NCBI GenBank assembly: GCA_903906315.1
Contig: CAIVJW010000054.1
Span: forward strand, 1-64,000
Reading direction: 5' to 3'
Length of the DNA stretch: 64,000 nt
Origin: an uncultured delta proteobacterium
GTDB taxonomy: Bacteria > Myxococcota_A > Polyangia > Polyangiales > Polyangiaceae
The number at the start of each line of letters is the position of its first letter. The first letter of the stretch is position 1. Under the pieces are notes generated by a model. That model searched no databases. It saw nothing but the letters and a program-made list of their open reading frames with translations, and had not been told where the DNA came from. Of this stretch, positions 48,263-60,570 are shown piece by piece. Position numbers and translations under genes: made by a program.

Positions 48263-51200
48263 ATGCCCGCCGAGCTCGTCGTCTCTCCCTCGGCCCGAGC
48301 GCGGGTGGCGCGCGCCGCGGCGTGGCTCGTGGCCGAGGCCTCGGGGCGGCCCGCGCTGGTGATCGGGGCGAGCCACGAGGCGGCGAGCGAGCTGGCCCGG
48401 GCCGCGGCGACGGGCGCCCGAGGCGGCGCGACGTTCGGGTGGCACCGCGCGACGCTCGGGCAGGTCGCCGCGCGGCTCGCGCTCCCCGCGCTCGCGAAGC
48501 GCGGGGTCGCCGCGGTCGGGCCGCTCGCGCTGGAGGCGATCTGCACGCGCGTGACGACGCGGCTCGCGGCGCGCGGCGCGCTCGGGCGGCTCGCGGCGGT
48601 AGCGGAGACGCCCGGCCTGCCGCGGGCCCTCGCGCGCACGTTGCGCGAGCTGCGGCTCTCCGGGGTGGGGAGGGCCAAGCTCGCCGAGGTCGCGCCCGAG
48701 CTCGAGGCCATCGCCGCCGAATACGAGGCCGAGCTCGCGCACGCCGGGCTGGCGGACCGCGCGCTCGTGATCGCGCTCGCGATCGAGGCGGCGCGCGATC
48801 GAGGCGCGGCGCACGAGCTGTTCGGGCTGCCGCTCTGCCTGCTCGACGTGCCGCTGACCAGCGCGTTCGAACGCGACCTCGTCGCGGCCCTCGCCGCGCG
48901 TGCGCCCGTCGCGATCGTCACCGTGCCCGCGGGCGACCGACGCTCCGCGGCGCTGGCGATCGAGGCGATCGCGACCGCGACGCCGGCGCGCTCGCAGAGC
49001 CGTGGAGCCGCGACCGCGCGCGGGGCCGCGCCCGCCGCCGACGCGATCGCCTCGCCGGCGGCGACGCCTACGCCTGCGCCCACGACCTCGCTGGATCGCC
49101 TGCAACGCGGCCTCTTTGGTGACTCGGCCGAGGGCGACGCGCCGCTCGACGAGGACGTGGTGCTGATGAGCGCGCCCGGCGAGAGCCGCGAGTGCGTCGA
49201 GATCGCCCGCCACGCGCGCCGCTTCGCCGAGACGCGCGGGGTGCGCTTCGACCGCATGGCCATCCTGCTGCGGGCGCCTGGGCCCTACCGTCCGCACCTC
49301 GAGGAGGCGCTGCGAAGGGCCGGGATTCCTGCCCATTTCGCGCGCGGCACCGTGCGCCCCGACCCGGCCGGGCGCGCGCTCCTGGCGCTGCTCGCGTGCG
49401 CCGCCGAGGGCCTGTCCGCGCGCGGCTTCGCCGAGTACCTGTCGCTCGGCGAGGTGCCGGCGCCGACTCCCGAGGGCGCGCCTCCGCCGCCGAACGGCCC
49501 CGCTGCGCGCTGGGTGCCGACCGACGACGAGCTCGCGCCGACCGCGACGGCGCACGCGGACGGTGACGACACCGACGACGCGATCGAGGACCCCGCGGGG
49601 CCCGCGGATCCGCTCGCGACGCCCGCGGTCGCCGGCACGCGCCGCGCGCCCCGGCACTGGGAGCGCCTGATCGTCGAAGCCGCCGTCATCGGAGGCCGCG
49701 ATCGCTGGGCGCGACGCCTCGACGGCCTCGACGACGAGCGCCGGCTCGACCTCGCCGAGCTCGATCCCGGCGACGCCGGGCGCCCGCGGCTCGATTGCGA
49801 TCGCGCGGCCATCGCGGCCCTGCGCGCCTACGCGCTGCCGCTCCTCGACGCGCTCGCCGCGCTCCCCCGCGCCGGGACGTGGGGCGAATGGATCGACGCG
49901 CTCTCGTCGCTCGCCACGCGCGCGCTGCGCAGGCCGAGGCGCGTGCTCGCGGTGCTCGGCGAGCTCGCCCCCATGGCCGCGGTCGGGCCGGTCGATCTCG
50001 CGGAGGTGCGCCTCGTGATCGGGCCGCGGCTGACCGAGCTCGTCTTGCTGCCCACGGAGCGGCGCTTCGGGCGGATCTTCGTGGGCCCGATCGACGCGGC
50101 GCGCGGGCTCGACTTCGACGTCGTGTTCGTCCCCGGCCTCGCCGAGAAGCTGTTCCCGCCGAAGGTCGTCGAGGATCCGATCCTCCCCGACGACGCGCGC
50201 CGCGCGCTCGACGCCGGGCTCGAGCAGCGCGCCGATCGGGTCGAGGCCGAGCGCCTCGCGCTGCGGCTCGCGGTCGGGGCCGCGAGCCAGGCCGTCGTGC
50301 TCTCGTACCCGCGCGTCGACCTGGACCAGTCGCGCCCGCGGGTCCCTTCGTTTTATGCGCTCGAGGCGCTGCGCGCGGCCGAGGGCCGGCTGCCCGGCTT
50401 CGACGAGCTCGCGCGGCGGGCCGAGCGCGGCGGCGCGGCGCGCATCGGCTGGCCCGCGCCCGACGATCAGGCCGACGCGATCGACGAGGCCGAGCACGAC
50501 CTCGCGCTGCTCGCCGAGCTCTTCCGCGGCAGGCGCGAGGGCGACCAGAAGGGCACCGCACGCTACCTGCTCACCGTGAACCCGCACCTCACGCGGGCGC
50601 TGCGCTTCCGGGCGCGACGGTGGACGATCCCCCGCTTTTCGCACGCCGACGGCCTCGTGCTCGACGACAAGTCGCTGCCCGCGGCGAAGGCCGCGCTCGC
50701 CGCCCACGCGCTGTCGGCGCGCTCGTACTCGCCGACCGCGCTGCAGAACTTCGCGGGGTGCCCGTACCGCTTCGTCTTGCAGGCCGTGCACAAGCTCGCG
50801 CCGCGCGAGGAGCCCGAGGCGATCGAGGAGCTCAACGCCCTGCAGCGAGGCTCGCTCGTGCACGCCATCCACTACGCGTTCCTCGTCGAGCTGCGCGCCG
50901 AGGACCTGCTGCCCGTGCGCGCCGATGGCCTCGACCGAGCGCGCGCGCTGCTCGACGCCGTCGCGACGCGCGTCGCGGGCGATCACCGCGAGATCTACGC
51001 GCCCGCGATCGCGCGCGTGTGGGACGACGGCATCGCCGGCATCAAGGCGGATCTGCGCGAGTGGCTGCGGCGCCTCGCCGACGAGCCCGACTGGGCGCCG
51101 TGGAAGTTCGAGCTCTCCTTCGGCCTCGCGGACCGGCGCGACCAGGACCCGGCCAGCCTCGCGGCCCCCGTCCGGCTCGACTGCGGCATCTCGCTGCGCG

Positions 51201-51637
51201 GGTCGATCGACCTCGTCGAGCGGAGCGGGCGCGGCACCGTGCGCGCGACCGACTACAAGACCGGCAAGGTGCGCGCAGAGGCCGGCGACGTCGTCAGCGG
51301 CGGCGAGACGCTGCAGCCGGTGCTCTACGCGCTCACGCTCGAGAAGCTCCTGCCGGGCACGATCGTCGAGGCCGGGCGCCTCTACTACTGCACCTCGACG
51401 GGCGGCTTCGAGTCGGTGGCGATCCCGCTCGACGACAAGGCGCGCCGGGCCGCCGACCTCGTGGCCCGCACGATCGGCGACGCGATCGACCGCGGCTTCT
51501 TGCCCGCGGCGCCCGCCGAGAGGGCGTGCGAGTGGTGCGACTACCGCGTCGTCTGCGGCCCGCACGAGGAGCTGCGCCTGCGAAAGAAGTCGAAGAAACC
51601 GCTCGAACCGCTGCTCGAGCTGCGGAGGTCCTCGTGA
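48263..51637 (+). CDS. addB: AddB-like ATP-dependent nuclease subunit
   Basis: The 1124-aa protein is an AddB/RexB-type partner of AddA. It begins LVVSPSARARVARAAAW. The usual Walker A of AddB is not visible, as the equivalent stretch reads VIGASHEAASELAR. The inactive helicase-like core has IDAARGLDFDVVFVPGL. The C-terminal PD-(D/E)XK nuclease contains TALQNFAGCPYRF (C833), ATDYKTGK, and ACEWCDYRVVC (C1089, C1092, C1098). The four Cys can bind the 4Fe-4S cluster known in AddB. It processes DNA ends for RecA-dependent repair. Its stop overlaps the addA start (GTGA). Start ATG 48263 follows a gap of 25 nt to the pseudogene limit. Confidence 0.85.
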   Translation: MPAELVVSPSARARVARAAAWLVAEASGRPALVIGASHEAASELARAAATGARGGATFGWHRATLGQVAARLALPALAKRGVAAVGPLALEAICTRVTTRLAARGALGRLAAVAETPGLPRALARTLRELRLSGVGRAKLAEVAPELEAIAAEYEAELAHAGLADRALVIALAIEAARDRGAAHELFGLPLCLLDVPLTSAFERDLVAALAARAPVAIVTVPAGDRRSAALAIEAIATATPARSQSRGAATARGAAPAADAIASPAATPTPAPTTSLDRLQRGLFGDSAEGDAPLDEDVVLMSAPGESRECVEIARHARRFAETRGVRFDRMAILLRAPGPYRPHLEEALRRAGIPAHFARGTVRPDPAGRALLALLACAAEGLSARGFAEYLSLGEVPAPTPEGAPPPPNGPAARWVPTDDELAPTATAHADGDDTDDAIEDPAGPADPLATPAVAGTRRAPRHWERLIVEAAVIGGRDRWARRLDGLDDERRLDLAELDPGDAGRPRLDCDRAAIAALRAYALPLLDALAALPRAGTWGEWIDALSSLATRALRRPRRVLAVLGELAPMAAVGPVDLAEVRLVIGPRLTELVLLPTERRFGRIFVGPIDAARGLDFDVVFVPGLAEKLFPPKVVEDPILPDDARRALDAGLEQRADRVEAERLALRLAVGAASQAVVLSYPRVDLDQSRPRVPSFYALEALRAAEGRLPGFDELARRAERGGAARIGWPAPDDQADAIDEAEHDLALLAELFRGRREGDQKGTARYLLTVNPHLTRALRFRARRWTIPRFSHADGLVLDDKSLPAAKAALAAHALSARSYSPTALQNFAGCPYRFVLQAVHKLAPREEPEAIEELNALQRGSLVHAIHYAFLVELRAEDLLPVRADGLDRARALLDAVATRVAGDHREIYAPAIARVWDDGIAGIKADLREWLRRLADEPDWAPWKFELSFGLADRRDQDPASLAAPVRLDCGISLRGSIDLVERSGRGTVRATDYKTGKVRAEAGDVVSGGETLQPVLYALTLEKLLPGTIVEAGRLYYCTSTGGFESVAIPLDDKARRAADLVARTIGDAIDRGFLPAAPAERACEWCDYRVVCGPHEELRLRKKSKKPLEPLLELRRSS

Positions 51638-54600
51638 CGACGACGGAGGCGCGGCCGCTCGTGGACGCCGAGGCGCGCCGCGCGATCCGAGAGGACCTCG
51701 GCGCGACGCTCGTGGTCGAGGCGGCGGCGGGCACCGGCAAGACCACCGAGCTGGTCGCGCGCGTGGTCGCGCTGCTGCGCGGCGACGCGGCCCGGCTCGG
51801 GGCCATCGTCGCGGTGACGTTCACCGAGAAGGCCGCCGGCGAGATGAAGCTCCGGCTGCGCGGCGAGATCGAGCGCGCGCGCACCAGCGCCGCCACGACG
51901 CAAGACGAGCGCGCGCGCTTCGACCTCGCGCTCGCCGAGCTCGAGGTAGCGCGCATCGGCACGATCCACTCGCTCTGCGCGGACGTCCTGCGCGAGCACC
52001 CGGTCGAGGCCGGCGTCGATCCGCTGTTCGAGGTCGCCGCCGGCGACGAGGCCGAGGCGCTCTACGCGAGCGCGTTCGATCCCTGGTTCCAGGCCGCGCT
52101 CGCCGACCCGACCGAGGGCGTGCGGCGCATCCTCCGGCGCCGCCCGCGCGGGCGCGACGCCACGGGGCCACGGCAGCTGCTCTACAAGGCCGGGATCGAC
52201 CTGCTCGACCACCGCGACTTCGACGCGGCGTGGAGGCGCGATCCGTTCGATCGCGTCCGGGCGATCGACGACGCCGTCGACGCGCTGCGGGCCGTGGGAG
52301 GCGACGCCGGCCTCGCGTACAAGAGCGACGACTTCCTCGCGCAGAACCTCGCCGAGGTGGCGCGCTTCCTCGACGACCTCGACGGGCGCGAGCGCGTGCG
52401 AGGCCGCGACCACGACGGCCTCGAGGCCGAGCTTCGCGAGCTCGTGAAGAAGCGATCCTTCCACTGGAAGGGCGGCGGTCGCTGGTACGGACACGGCATC
52501 GCGCGCGGCGACGTGCTCGCTCGACGCGACGGCGCCCGCGACCGCGTCGAGGGCGTGCTGCGGCGCGCCGACGCGGACCTCGCCGCGTGCCTCTCGGCCG
52601 AGCTCGCCCCGCTCGTCCGCGCCTACCAGGCCCTGCTCGAGAAGGCCGGGAAGCTCGACTTCCTCGACCTGCTCGTCCGCACGCGCGACCTCCTCGCGAA
52701 CGACGCGGCGGTGCGCGCCCGGTTGCAGGACCGCACGAGCCGCGTGCTGGTCGACGAGTTCCAGGACACCGACCCGCTCCAGGCCGAGATCCTGCTGCTG
52801 CTCGCCGCGGAGGACCCCGCCGTGACCGACGGCCTCACGGCGACGCCCGCCCCCGGCAAGCTCTTCGTCGTCGGCGACCCGAAGCAGTCGATCTACCGCT
52901 TCCGCCGCGCCGACGTGGCCCTCTACGAGGCCATCAAGCGACGCCTCGTCGCCGCGGGCGCGCGCGTCGTGAACCTGTCGACGAGCTTCCGCAGCGCGCC
53001 GTCGATCCAGGCCGCGGTGAACGCCGCGTTCGCCCCGCTCATGAGGGGCGCCGCCGACGGCAGCCAGGCCGCGTACGTCGCGCTCGAGGCGTTCCGAGGC
53101 GACCCCGAGGGGCGCCCCACGGTGATCGCGCTGCCCGTCCCCGCGCCGTACGGCGACTACGGCAAGGTCGTCAGCTGGCGCGTGGAGGCCTCGCTCCCCG
53201 ACGCGGTCGGCGCGTTCGTCGACTGGCTCGTCCGCGAGAGCGGCTGGCGCGTGACCGAGCGCGAAGGAGCGGGGGGCGCGGTGCCCGTCGAGCCGCGGCA
53301 CGTGTGCCTCCTGTTCAAGCGCTTCCAGGCGTTCCGCGAGGACGTCACGCGGCCGTACGTGCGAGCGCTCGAGGCGCGCGGCGTGCCGCACGTGCTCGTC
53401 GGCGGGCGCTCCTACCACCAGCGCGAGGAGGTGCTCGCCGTGCGCAACGCGCTGGCCGCGATCGAGCGCCCCGACGACGAGCTCCGCGTCTACGCGACGC
53501 TGCACGGGCCGCTCTTCGCCTTCTCGGACGACGTGCTCCTCGCGCACCGCGCGGCGTTCGGCGGCCTGCACCCCCTGCGCACGCACGACGCGACGCGCGC
53601 CACGGCCGACGGCCTCGACGAGGTCGTCGACGCGCTCTCCCTGCTCGCGCGCCTGCACGCGGGCCGCAACCGCAGGCCGATCGCCGACACCCTCTCGCGC
53701 CTGCTCGGGGCGACGCGCGCGCACGCGGGCATCGCGATCTGGCCCACGGGCGAGCAGGCCCTCGCCAACCTCCTGCGCGTGATCGACCTCGCGCGGCGCT
53801 TCGAGGCGGCCGGGGCGACCTCGTTCCGCGCCTTCGTCGACAAGCTCGAGGGCGACGCCGAGAGCGGCAACGTCGCCGAGGCGCCGGTCGTCGAGGAGGG
53901 CACCGACGGCGTGCGCCTCATGACCGTGCACCGCGCGAAGGGCCTCGAGTTCCCCGTCGTGATCCTCGTCGACCCGACGGCGCAGTCCGCGCAGAGGAAC
54001 CCCTCGCGCTGGGTCTCGCCCCCGGATCGCCTGTGGTCGATGCCGCTCGCGCAGTGCACGCCGGTCGAGCTCGACGAGCACGCCAGCGAGGTCGTCCGGG
54101 CCGACGGCGCCGAGGCCGTGCGCCTCGCCTACGTCGCGGCGACGCGCGCGCGCGACCTGCTCGTGGTGCCGACGTGCGGCGACGAGCCCCTCGCGGGCTG
54201 GCTCGACGTGCTCGCGCCGATCGTGACGCCGCACCCGGCCGCCCGGCGCAAGGCGCGCCCAGCGCCGGGGTGCCCGGCGTTCGGCCCCGACAGCGTGAAG
54301 GACCGGCCCGCGAACGTCGACCGAGGCGCCGAGGGATCGGTGGCGCCGGGCCTGCACCGACCGCAGGTGGGCACGCACGAGGTCGTGTGGTGGGACCCGA
54401 GCGCGCTCGATCTCGGGCGCGAGAGCGACGCGGGCCTCCGACAGCAGCGGATCCTCGAGGCCGACGAGGGAGGGGCTACCGCGCTCGCGAGCGAGCAGGC
54501 GCACGCCGCGTGGCAGGCGCGGCGCAGCGCGACGATCGAGCGCGGGTCGGCCGCGAGCGTCGTCGTCCGCACGCCGACCGATCTCGCGGCCGACGCCGCT

Positions 54601-55119
54601 CCGGCCGAGGGGGGCGCGGCGGTCGTCGTCGTCGATCACACCGACGCGGACCGCGCCGGCCGCCCGCGCGGCAAGCGCTTCGGCACCCTCGTGCACGGCG
54701 TCCTGTCCGAGGCGCCGTTCGACGCGGATCGCGCGGCGATCGACCTCTTGGCGCGCGCGATCGCCCGCCACGAGGACGCCCCGGAGGCCGAGGTGCTGGC
54801 CGCCGTCGACGCCGCGATCCACGCGCTCGCCCACCCGCTCCTCCGCCGCGCGGCCGCCGCGTCCTCGCGCGGGGAGTGCCGCCGCGAGGCGCCGATCACG
54901 CAGGCCCTCGAGGACGGCGCGATCGTGGACGGCACCGTCGACCTCGCCTTCCGCGAGGCCGCACCGGACGGCGGCGCCGTGTGGACGGTCGTCGACTTCA
55001 AGACCGACGTCGAGATCGGCCCGGTCCTCGCGCGCTACGAAGCGCAGGTGCGGATCTACGCGCGCGCGATCACGGCGGCGACCGGCGAGCCCGCCCGCGC
55101 GGTGCTGCTCTCGGTCTGA
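51634..55119 (+). CDS. addA: AddA-like helicase-nuclease (UvrD family)
   Basis: The 1161-aa protein is the SF1A helicase/nuclease AddA. It shows VVEAAAGTGKTTEL (Walker A 31-38), AVTFTEKAAGEMK, VDEFQDTDPLQ, VVGDPKQSIYRFRRAD, MTVHRAKGLEFPVV and AYVAATRARDLL. The C-terminal nuclease (about 1030-1161) has GTLVHGVLSE, DGTVDLAFRE and VVDFKTD (K1123). Together with AddB it degrades and resects double-strand breaks for homologous recombination and also attacks foreign linear DNA. It starts at a GTG overlapping the addB stop, a coupled operon. The frame is open far upstream, but earlier residues are AddB shadow. A 146-nt gap follows. Confidence 0.9.
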   Translation: MTTTEARPLVDAEARRAIREDLGATLVVEAAAGTGKTTELVARVVALLRGDAARLGAIVAVTFTEKAAGEMKLRLRGEIERARTSAATTQDERARFDLALAELEVARIGTIHSLCADVLREHPVEAGVDPLFEVAAGDEAEALYASAFDPWFQAALADPTEGVRRILRRRPRGRDATGPRQLLYKAGIDLLDHRDFDAAWRRDPFDRVRAIDDAVDALRAVGGDAGLAYKSDDFLAQNLAEVARFLDDLDGRERVRGRDHDGLEAELRELVKKRSFHWKGGGRWYGHGIARGDVLARRDGARDRVEGVLRRADADLAACLSAELAPLVRAYQALLEKAGKLDFLDLLVRTRDLLANDAAVRARLQDRTSRVLVDEFQDTDPLQAEILLLLAAEDPAVTDGLTATPAPGKLFVVGDPKQSIYRFRRADVALYEAIKRRLVAAGARVVNLSTSFRSAPSIQAAVNAAFAPLMRGAADGSQAAYVALEAFRGDPEGRPTVIALPVPAPYGDYGKVVSWRVEASLPDAVGAFVDWLVRESGWRVTEREGAGGAVPVEPRHVCLLFKRFQAFREDVTRPYVRALEARGVPHVLVGGRSYHQREEVLAVRNALAAIERPDDELRVYATLHGPLFAFSDDVLLAHRAAFGGLHPLRTHDATRATADGLDEVVDALSLLARLHAGRNRRPIADTLSRLLGATRAHAGIAIWPTGEQALANLLRVIDLARRFEAAGATSFRAFVDKLEGDAESGNVAEAPVVEEGTDGVRLMTVHRAKGLEFPVVILVDPTAQSAQRNPSRWVSPPDRLWSMPLAQCTPVELDEHASEVVRADGAEAVRLAYVAATRARDLLVVPTCGDEPLAGWLDVLAPIVTPHPAARRKARPAPGCPAFGPDSVKDRPANVDRGAEGSVAPGLHRPQVGTHEVVWWDPSALDLGRESDAGLRQQRILEADEGGATALASEQAHAAWQARRSATIERGSAASVVVRTPTDLAADAAPAEGGAAVVVVDHTDADRAGRPRGKRFGTLVHGVLSEAPFDADRAAIDLLARAIARHEDAPEAEVLAAVDAAIHALAHPLLRRAAAASSRGECRREAPITQALEDGAIVDGTVDLAFREAAPDGGAVWTVVDFKTDVEIGPVLARYEAQVRIYARAITAATGEPARAVLLSV

Positions 55120-58386: not shown

Positions 58387-60570
58387 ATGACCACGATCCC
58401 CGTCCTCGAGAGACCGTACGCCCGCGGGCCCCATACGACCGTCGACGACGATCCGCCGCCCGAGAGCGCCTTCAACCGCGCCGCGCGCGAGCTCGCGGCG
58501 ATCCCCGGCTGCGTCGACATGATCGAGGTGCCCGCCGGTTCGGTCGTCGTCGAGGAGGGCTTTCACGACCGCGACATGTATTTCGTCGTCTCGGGGCACG
58601 CGATGCTGCGGCGCAGCGGCATCGACCTCGGCCCGCTCGGGCCCGGCGACCACTTCGGCGAGCTCGCGCTCATCGCGGGCCGCCCGCGCGCCGCGTCCGT
58701 GTACGCGATCACGGATCTGCGCCTCGCGCGCCTGCCTCAGCAGCGCTTCCAGGACCTCATCGCGAGCCACCCCGCCGTCGCGCTGAGCTTCATCCAGGAG
58801 CTCGTGAGCGTGCTCGGCAAGGAGCTCGCGGACATGACCGACAGCGTCGCGCTGCTCCTGCGGGAGAGGTCGCTGCCGCGCCGCACGCAGGTGCGCGTCC
58901 GCGTGGGCGCGGCGCCGATCGTCGTGCGCACGGGCACACCGGCGGCAAACCTCCTGCCGACCGAGGTCAACGGCCGCCCGGTCGTCGCCGCGCTCATCGA
59001 TCGCAAGGCCGTGCCGCTGCTCACGCCGATCGCCTCCGAGGGATCCATCGAGCCGCTCACGACCGCGCACTGGGAGGGCCGCAAGATCTACCGCGCGAGC
59101 GTCGGCCTGCTCCTGCTCGAGGCCGCGCGCCGCGTCGAGGTGCGCCTCGACCTGCGCCTCGGCCCGTCGCTCGGCAGCGGCCAGATCGTCGAGGTGAACG
59201 GGTCGGGCGACCCACACGACCTGCCCGCGCTCGCCTGCACGCTCAGCGAGATGATGCGCACCCTCGCGATCGGCGACGCGCCCTGCCGGCAGGAGCTCTG
59301 GACGGCGGAGGAGGCGACCACGCACTTCCTCGAGCGCGGCTGGACGGACGCGGCCGCGCTGCTCCGCACCTGGCGCGACCCGACGGTGCCGCTCGTGAGC
59401 GCAGGCGAGGTGTACGCGCTCGCCCTCGGCCCGGTCGTGCCGAGCCTCGGCATGCTCCGCGGCTTCTCGGTCCAGGCGAACGACGGCGACCTCGTGCTCT
59501 CGTTCGGCGACGAGGATCTGCACGGCGCCCCCGGCCTCGAGGCCGCGCTCTCGATGCACGGCAGCTCGGCCCAGCGGCGGCGCGAGGCCAGCATGGCGCA
59601 CGACCACCGAGGCTGGCTCGACGCGTTCGGGGTCACGAGCGTCGGCGCCTTCAACGAGCTCTGCGTCTCGGGCAAGGTCTCCGAGCTCATCCGCATGAGC
59701 GAGGGCTTCCACGAGAAGCGCGTCGGCCGCATCGCCGACGAGATCGCGGCCCGCCGCGGCGACGTGCGCGTGATCTCGATCGCGGGCCCCTCGTCGTCGG
59801 GCAAGACGACGTTCATCAAGCGCCTCGTCGTCCAGCTGCTCATCGACGGCCTCGAGCCGCTCGCGATCTCGCTCGACGACTACTACCTCGACCGCGAGCG
59901 GTCGCCGCGTGACGAGAATGGCGAGTTCGATTTCGAGGCCTTCGAGGCGCTCGACATCCCGCTCCTCCAGCAGCACTTCGCGCGCCTGCTCACGGGCGAG
60001 CGGGTGAAGACGGCGCGCTACGACTTCCAGAGCGGCAAGAGCCAGTCCGCGGGCGGTCCGGAGCTCGAGATGAAGCCGGGGGTGGTGCTCCTGCTCGAGG
60101 GCATCCACGGCCTGAACCCGCGCCTCTGGTCGGGGCTCCTCGAGCCGCACCAGGTCTTCCGCATCTTCATCGAGCCCGCGACCGCGCTCGCGTTCGACCG
60201 CCTGACGCGCGCGTCGGTCGCCGACCTCCGGCTCATCCGCCGCATCGTGCGCGACCGCCACCAGCGCGGGCACACCGCCGCGGCGAACATCGCGCGCTGG
60301 CCGAGCGTCCGCGCCGGCGAGCGCAAGCACATCTTCCCCTTCGAGCCGCAGGCCGACGCGATCTACGACTCGTCGCTCATCTACGAGCCTGCCGTGCTCA
60401 AGGTCTTCGCCGAACGCTATCTGCTCGAGGTGCCCGAGACCGATCCGGCGTTCACCACGTCGTACCGCCTGCGGCAGCTCATCGATCGCTTCGTCGCGAT
60501 CTACCCGGACCACGTGCCGTCGACCTCGATCTTGCGCGAGTTCATCGGCGGCAGCGGCTGGGAGCGCTGA
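58387..60570 (+). CDS. Cyclic-nucleotide-binding domain fused to uridine-kinase-like protein
   Basis: The 727-aa protein has three parts. Residues 45-155 form a cNMP-binding (CAP_ED) domain with IEVPAGSVVVEEG, LGPGDHFGELALIAG and RPRAASVYA. Residues about 175-420 resemble the TGS/ThrRS-like region found before nucleoside kinases. Residues 455-727 are a P-loop uridine kinase, with GPSSSGKTT (467-475), ISLDDYYLDRERSPRDENG and LLLEGIHGLNP. Uridine/cytidine or a related nucleoside is the likely substrate. The attached cNMP domain would allow gating by cAMP or c-di-GMP, an unusual fusion. The RPRAAS phosphate-binding cassette has both the Arg and the Ala/Ser expected. Confidence 0.8.
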   Translation: MTTIPVLERPYARGPHTTVDDDPPPESAFNRAARELAAIPGCVDMIEVPAGSVVVEEGFHDRDMYFVVSGHAMLRRSGIDLGPLGPGDHFGELALIAGRPRAASVYAITDLRLARLPQQRFQDLIASHPAVALSFIQELVSVLGKELADMTDSVALLLRERSLPRRTQVRVRVGAAPIVVRTGTPAANLLPTEVNGRPVVAALIDRKAVPLLTPIASEGSIEPLTTAHWEGRKIYRASVGLLLLEAARRVEVRLDLRLGPSLGSGQIVEVNGSGDPHDLPALACTLSEMMRTLAIGDAPCRQELWTAEEATTHFLERGWTDAAALLRTWRDPTVPLVSAGEVYALALGPVVPSLGMLRGFSVQANDGDLVLSFGDEDLHGAPGLEAALSMHGSSAQRRREASMAHDHRGWLDAFGVTSVGAFNELCVSGKVSELIRMSEGFHEKRVGRIADEIAARRGDVRVISIAGPSSSGKTTFIKRLVVQLLIDGLEPLAISLDDYYLDRERSPRDENGEFDFEAFEALDIPLLQQHFARLLTGERVKTARYDFQSGKSQSAGGPELEMKPGVVLLLEGIHGLNPRLWSGLLEPHQVFRIFIEPATALAFDRLTRASVADLRLIRRIVRDRHQRGHTAAANIARWPSVRAGERKHIFPFEPQADAIYDSSLIYEPAVLKVFAERYLLEVPETDPAFTTSYRLRQLIDRFVAIYPDHVPSTSILREFIGGSGWER

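Follow-up and report, generated by a model that had tools for sequence, protein, structure and literature searches.

Does a bacterial cyclic nucleotide act directly on an enzyme of the uridine-kinase fold, and on which reaction? The question is raised by one gene in a stretch of 64,000 nucleotides from an uncultured member of the Polyangiaceae (the window), in which a cyclic-nucleotide-binding (CNB) domain precedes a ThrRS-like region and a P-loop kinase. Direct action of a cyclic nucleotide on a fused catalytic domain has been described for few bacterial enzymes. The gene also offers a handle on the three-domain TGS/ThrRS/URK protein, an orphan for decades, whose one assayed member in the literature searched was inactive on uridine. 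If this three-domain family needs an activator, the fused version would point to cAMP as a candidate.

Four modules in a single reading frame

The open reading frame 58387-60570 on the forward strand starts with an ATG at 58387, closes with a stop codon ending at 60570 and encodes 727 amino acids. Its modules are arranged as follows, with the evidence given in brackets.

58387..60570, + strand: whole gene, CNB / TGS / ThrRS-N2-like / URK-like kinase (ORF, Pfam, AlphaFold model, GC3)
58468..58770, + strand: CNB domain, residues 28-128, beta barrel with flanking helices (PF00027, model, Foldseek to GlxR and MtbCRP with cAMP)
58771..58863, + strand: long C-helix, residues 129-159 (31 residues), with a clade-conserved M-T-[DE]-x-V at 150-154 (model, conservation)
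58864..58887, + strand: hinge RERSLPRR, residues ~159-166, flexible yet conserved (pLDDT dip near 150-165, alignment)
58888..59061, + strand: TGS-like (ThrRS N1) domain, residues ~168-225 (ThrRS profile match, model)
59071..59502, + strand: ThrRS-N2 (editing-domain)-like module, residues ~229-372, catalytic His/Cys lost (ThrRS profile, Foldseek, residue check)
59764..60369, + strand: P-loop kinase of the PRK/uridine-kinase superfamily, residues 460-661 (PF00485, UCK structures)
60370..60567, + strand: C-terminal extension, residues 662-727, ending in LREFIGGSG (typical of the three-domain family, absent from canonical Udk)

The GC content at codon position 3 is 0.95-0.97 alike in the CNB, middle and kinase parts. 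This uniformity indicates one coding sequence and excludes a chance juxtaposition. The AlphaFold model of the 727-residue protein is confident (pLDDT 88, pTM 0.77), with short low-confidence stretches at 379-381 and 392-395, and consists of the CNB barrel, the helix 129-159, the TGS-like and ThrRS-N2-like module and the kinase. Foldseek matches the modelled modules to GlxR and MtbCRP with cAMP, to ThrRS and its editing domain, and to UCK2 and Thermus UCK, respectively. The first-pass annotation had placed a CNB, a ThrRS/TGS-like region and a P-loop kinase in this one frame, and Pfam, the ThrRS profile and Foldseek agree with it. The architecture is thus real, and it is conserved. A direct fusion of CNB and enzyme is a plausible allosteric arrangement, and at that level the proposed direct control is supported. 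The protein is best read as a four-module variant, so far undescribed in the literature searched, of the known orphan TGS/ThrRS/URK family.

An intact cyclic-nucleotide cassette

PF00027 (cNMP_binding) matches residues 47-128 with 63.2 bits (cut-off 27.5, E=2.2e-17), above the gathering score. Two features of this domain bear on ligand binding.

58654..58698, + strand: phosphate-binding cassette FGELALIAGRPRAAS, residues 90-104 (PKA R alignments, conservation)
58567..58569, + strand: D61, at the PKA Gly169 position in the beta2-beta3 loop (PKA alignment, conservation)

An apparently intact cassette had been proposed from the motifs GELALIAG (residues 91-98) and RPRAAS (residues 99-104), and the alignment bears this out. 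E92, A94, R101 and A102 align with E200, A202, R209 and A210 of PKA RI-alpha, and all PKA-type phosphate and ribose contacts are present in the cassette FGELALIAGRPRAASV, which is near-identical to that of PKA RI. The canonical motif FGE[LIV]AL...R209 (Kannan et al. 2007, PMC2246266) is found here as F90-G91-E92...R101. In PKA, Gly169 of the beta2-beta3 loop co-varies with Arg209. Its place is taken by D61 in the window protein, and a Gly is found in 20 of the 64 members with an intact cassette; without this Gly, the coupling may differ from that in PKA.

Could the sensor instead read a nucleoside, or a pyrimidine cyclic nucleotide (cUMP or cCMP) of the kind sensed by Pycsar effectors? The latter would suit a uridine-kinase-like enzyme thematically, and the CNB matches PycTIR both in PADLOC (E=1.2e-14) and as structure 8jsk. 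However, these matches reflect generic CNB homology, those to PKA R are stronger, and the resemblance to PycTIR is confined to CNB residues 42-144, with the TIR domain of a Pycsar effector absent. At positions 202, 209 and 210, the nucleoside-binding CNBs of trypanosomatids have Glu, a polar residue (T or N) and Val, respectively (PMC10959531), instead of Ala202, Arg209 and Ala210. All three are retained in the window protein as A94, R101 and A102, of cyclic-nucleotide type, which rules out a trypanosomatid-like cassette and makes nucleoside sensing unlikely. We therefore regard a ligand of either kind as very improbable.

Likely source of the signal and gene neighbourhood

Four class III cyclase domains are found in the genome, so a source of cyclic nucleotide is likely. 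In the cyclase P0002 the metal Asp is conserved, and so are a Lys (LDKFMGDG) and an Asp (IGDVAN), two motifs expected of adenylate cyclases. The matches of the genome's cyclases to PycC are again generic class III homology and do not speak for a pyrimidine signal. The genome also holds 20 CNB matches, pointing to extensive cyclic-nucleotide signalling.

No conserved neighbour gene and no link to cAMP signalling was found among 80 loci, for which the ORFs in flanks of up to 4 kb were clustered by BLAST. Most of the clusters consist of the gene read antisense or out of frame, and the remainder is limited to a few loci. In the window, the gene is preceded by Lnt and followed by a Na+/H+ exchanger, neither with a functional link to it. 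Also upstream of the gene, a large frame at 49795-55119 carries a UvrD/AddA-like helicase motif (AAAGTGKTTELVARV).

A degenerate ThrRS module in the middle

The Pfam search left the middle region without any match, and TGS and tRNA_SAD were absent from 63 of 63 members. A profile built from the middle region of 23 relatives retrieved solely ThrRS from the PDB (1nyq, E=2.8e-20; 1tje, 2.1e-18). The region has lost both editing motifs of ThrRS: in HxxxH the two His residues are replaced by A237 and L241, and of CxxxH the Cys and His are absent. Residues 165-727 align with the unfused three-domain members, and the ThrRS N1-N2 homology lies upstream of the URK-like kinase, the order that defines this family. 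To be noted, the fold of the ThrRS-N2-like module (59071-59502) also resembles chains of the mitoribosomal large subunit in Foldseek (4ce4_c and others), which are probably mL39, another degenerate derivative of ThrRS.

The kinase and its reaction

PF00485 (PRK) matches residues 462-660 with 68.8 bits (cut-off 22, E=7e-19). Three positions are of particular interest.

59785..59811, + strand: Walker A GPSSSGKTT, residues 467-475 (columns invariant or nearly so)
59875..59877, + strand: D497, the catalytic Asp position of UCK (alignment to 3w8r/3asy; invariant in 112 relatives)
60034..60036, + strand: G550, replacing the base-reading residue, Tyr93 of Thermus UCK (UCK alignment; Gly in 112/112 relatives)

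Among the 112 fused and unfused relatives, K473, D497, F547, G550, R618, R619, R622 and R627 are invariant, and E517 is kept in all but one. Essentially no variation is seen in the YDF motif or the Arg-rich lid, both of which are intact. Tyr93 of Thermus UCK, changed to His in 3w8r, is the residue that sets base specificity, and the ribose-site Asp of UCK corresponds to Glu517 here.

Pyrimidine salvage had been the reaction first proposed to stand under cyclic-nucleotide control, and this part of the first-pass annotation is not supported. A uridine or cytidine kinase with a regulated salvage activity would agree with the UCK fold and active-site frame, and members of the family usually go by the name of uridine or nucleoside kinase. 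However, the protein falls far below the uridine-kinase equivalog cut-offs (TIGR00235 / NF004018; 71.3 vs 220.3 and 76.3 vs 180 bits), and a separate canonical Udk locus in the same genome passes both, with scores of 235 and 260, respectively. Furthermore, an unfused three-domain relative from T. maritima forms no UMP, either full-length or truncated, and hydrolyses ATP in the presence of uridine (PMC10248530). Together with the invariant Gly550, Glu517 and the loss of the ThrRS editing residues, these results make uridine salvage a poor guess, and we consider a salvage kinase quite unlikely. It is unlikely that the enzyme is an ordinary uridine kinase or that uridine itself is its substrate; a ribonucleoside-like ligand or one related to tRNA or translation is possible.

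Distribution and history of the fusion

The same architecture is observed in more than 80 distinct proteins with ~41-59% identity, and in ~20 of 59 near relatives. In a sample of 286 Myxococcota genomes, 65 carry a homologue at E<=1e-50, of which ~40 are fused as judged from query coverage; the searches were samples and the counts are indicative. Hosts of the fusion include Polyangium, Anaeromyxobacter, Archangium, Sandaracinus and Kofleriaceae. Outside Myxococcota, the 82 homologue-bearing genomes of Spirochaetota include three clear fusions and one case truncated at a contig edge. For the phylum to which a genome titled Cyanobacteria belongs the count of fusions is four of five, and for that of a Thermoanaerobaculia (Acidobacteriota) genome it is zero of 15. 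Open frames of 1165 aa in some Acidobacteriota homologues were considered as other fusions and turned out to be GC-rich spurious frames. The first-pass annotation had weighed its reading against widespread occurrence as a known regulated family. Widespread the protein is; a description of the CNB/TGS/ThrRS/URK fusion, or of the family as a regulated one, was absent from the literature searched, which returned nothing relevant.

A tree of the TGS-to-kinase core of 113 proteins separates the fused clade from the unfused proteins by one branch of length 0.68 and support 1.0. With this single well-supported branch, the simplest history is one fusion event, after which the gene was transferred to a few other phyla. 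The fusion is old and widespread in myxobacteria, a phylum rich in cyclic-nucleotide machinery. Outside Myxococcota it is sporadic, at L092, L144 and L145 in Spirochaetota and at L085, L156 and L157 in the phylum of the genome titled Cyanobacteria. L085, L092, L144 and L145 are nested within the fused clade, which suggests horizontal transfer; L156 and L157 are not part of the tree.

Some genomes carry more than one member. A metagenome-assembled genome of 8.4 Mb titled Riflebacteria, a title that may be wrong (G318, L080), has three unfused homologues besides two copies of the fusion. Genome G159 holds a fused and an unfused member (C342, C507), so the two forms are probably not redundant. 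One fused relative, L061, has an in-frame stop in the CNB region (1080-1500), with similarity from 1080 and an open frame only from 1500. Either this gene is decaying into a pseudogene or the assembly is in error here.

Is the pocket under constraint, or is the CNB mainly a structural or dimerisation module in which ligand binding is vestigial or minor? Both E92 and R101 are kept in 64 of the 83 fused proteins, nine keep the Arg only (mostly Archangium/Myxococcaceae), three the Glu only and seven neither. By parsimony, the intact cassette is the root state and ~9 changes follow, whereas shuffled labels need 17 on average. The concern that the contact residues might be lost in homologues thus applies to 19 of 83 proteins; the other 64 keep an intact cassette, which is ancestral. 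A structural role would be consistent with these ~9 independent losses, among them the change of Glu to Ser, Ala or Val throughout whole Archangium/Myxococcaceae lineages, and with the slightly higher identity of C-helix and hinge (44%) than of the CNB (39%) in pairwise comparison of intact members. L082, L095 and L098, members of the fused clade in which a CNB is undetected though upstream DNA is present, would fit it as well and suggest secondary loss of the sensor. On the other side, Glu and Arg persist in those 64 proteins at ~50% overall divergence. R101 ranks 7th and E92 14th in conservation among 125 CNB positions of the 83 proteins. This is far above the CNB average and argues for a constrained pocket in most lineages, and we regard a mainly structural CNB as unlikely. 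The kinase residues are invariant even in the members with a decayed cassette; with the cassette lost repeatedly and the kinase persisting, control by a cyclic nucleotide appears dispensable in some lineages.

Proposed mechanism

We lean, with moderate confidence, towards a cAMP-gated orphan kinase or ATPase, controlled through the CNB, C-helix, hinge and TGS/ThrRS module. Established here are the modular anatomy, a single ancient fusion, a cassette that is intact and has long been retained in most lineages, and a kinase active site that does not vary. In this mechanism, cAMP, a likelier ligand than cGMP, would bind to the N-terminal CNB. Its binding would reorient the long C-helix and the conserved hinge RERSLPRR, the presumed coupling element. 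A dimer interface may be altered in consequence and the TGS/ThrRS-like and kinase modules affected, as in the enzyme Bd1971, where cAMP activates the EAL domain by way of the fused CNB (PMC6717892). Phosphotransfer by the kinase, or hydrolysis of ATP, would thereby be switched, in either direction. A more far-reaching proposal is that myxobacterial cAMP directly gates an enzyme made of a degenerate ThrRS module and a uridine-kinase fold, linking cAMP with translation or tRNA chemistry in a way that has no known counterpart; we offer this broader link tentatively and consider it doubtful.

Comparison with known systems

The CNB shares with PKA regulatory subunits and CRP-type proteins the E, A, R and A at the positions that contact cAMP, the beta barrel and the C-helix. 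Unlike them, the window protein has D61 in place of Gly169, a single CNB and a kinase of small-molecule type as output instead of a protein kinase or HTH. In its arrangement it is like the cAMP-gated EAL phosphodiesterase Bd1971, in which an N-terminal CNB acts on a C-terminal catalytic domain. The acetyltransferase Pat of Mycobacterium is built in the same way, with an N-terminal CNB acting on a C-terminal catalytic domain. Bd1971 and Pat have other catalytic domains and their gating is biochemically shown, whereas the window protein is known from sequence and model.

The kinase and Udk/UCK2 have in common the P-loop fold of the PRK family, the Walker A, the catalytic Asp, the YDF motif and the Arg-rich lid. 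The window kinase differs by Gly550 for the base reader, Glu517 for the ribose-site Asp, the C-terminal extension and the equivalog scores below cut-off.

The closest counterpart is the three-domain "uridine kinase" (TGS, ThrRS-like and URK) of Thermotoga maritima and Treponema, as cited in PMC10248530 from Wolf et al. 2000. Compared by description, its ThrRS-like and URK-like organisation matches that of the window protein. The invariant kinase residues of the fused proteins are shared by unfused relatives in Spirochaetota, Acidobacteriota and Myxococcota. The T. maritima and Treponema proteins lack the CNB, whereas the proteins that carry it form a clade of their own with support 1.0.
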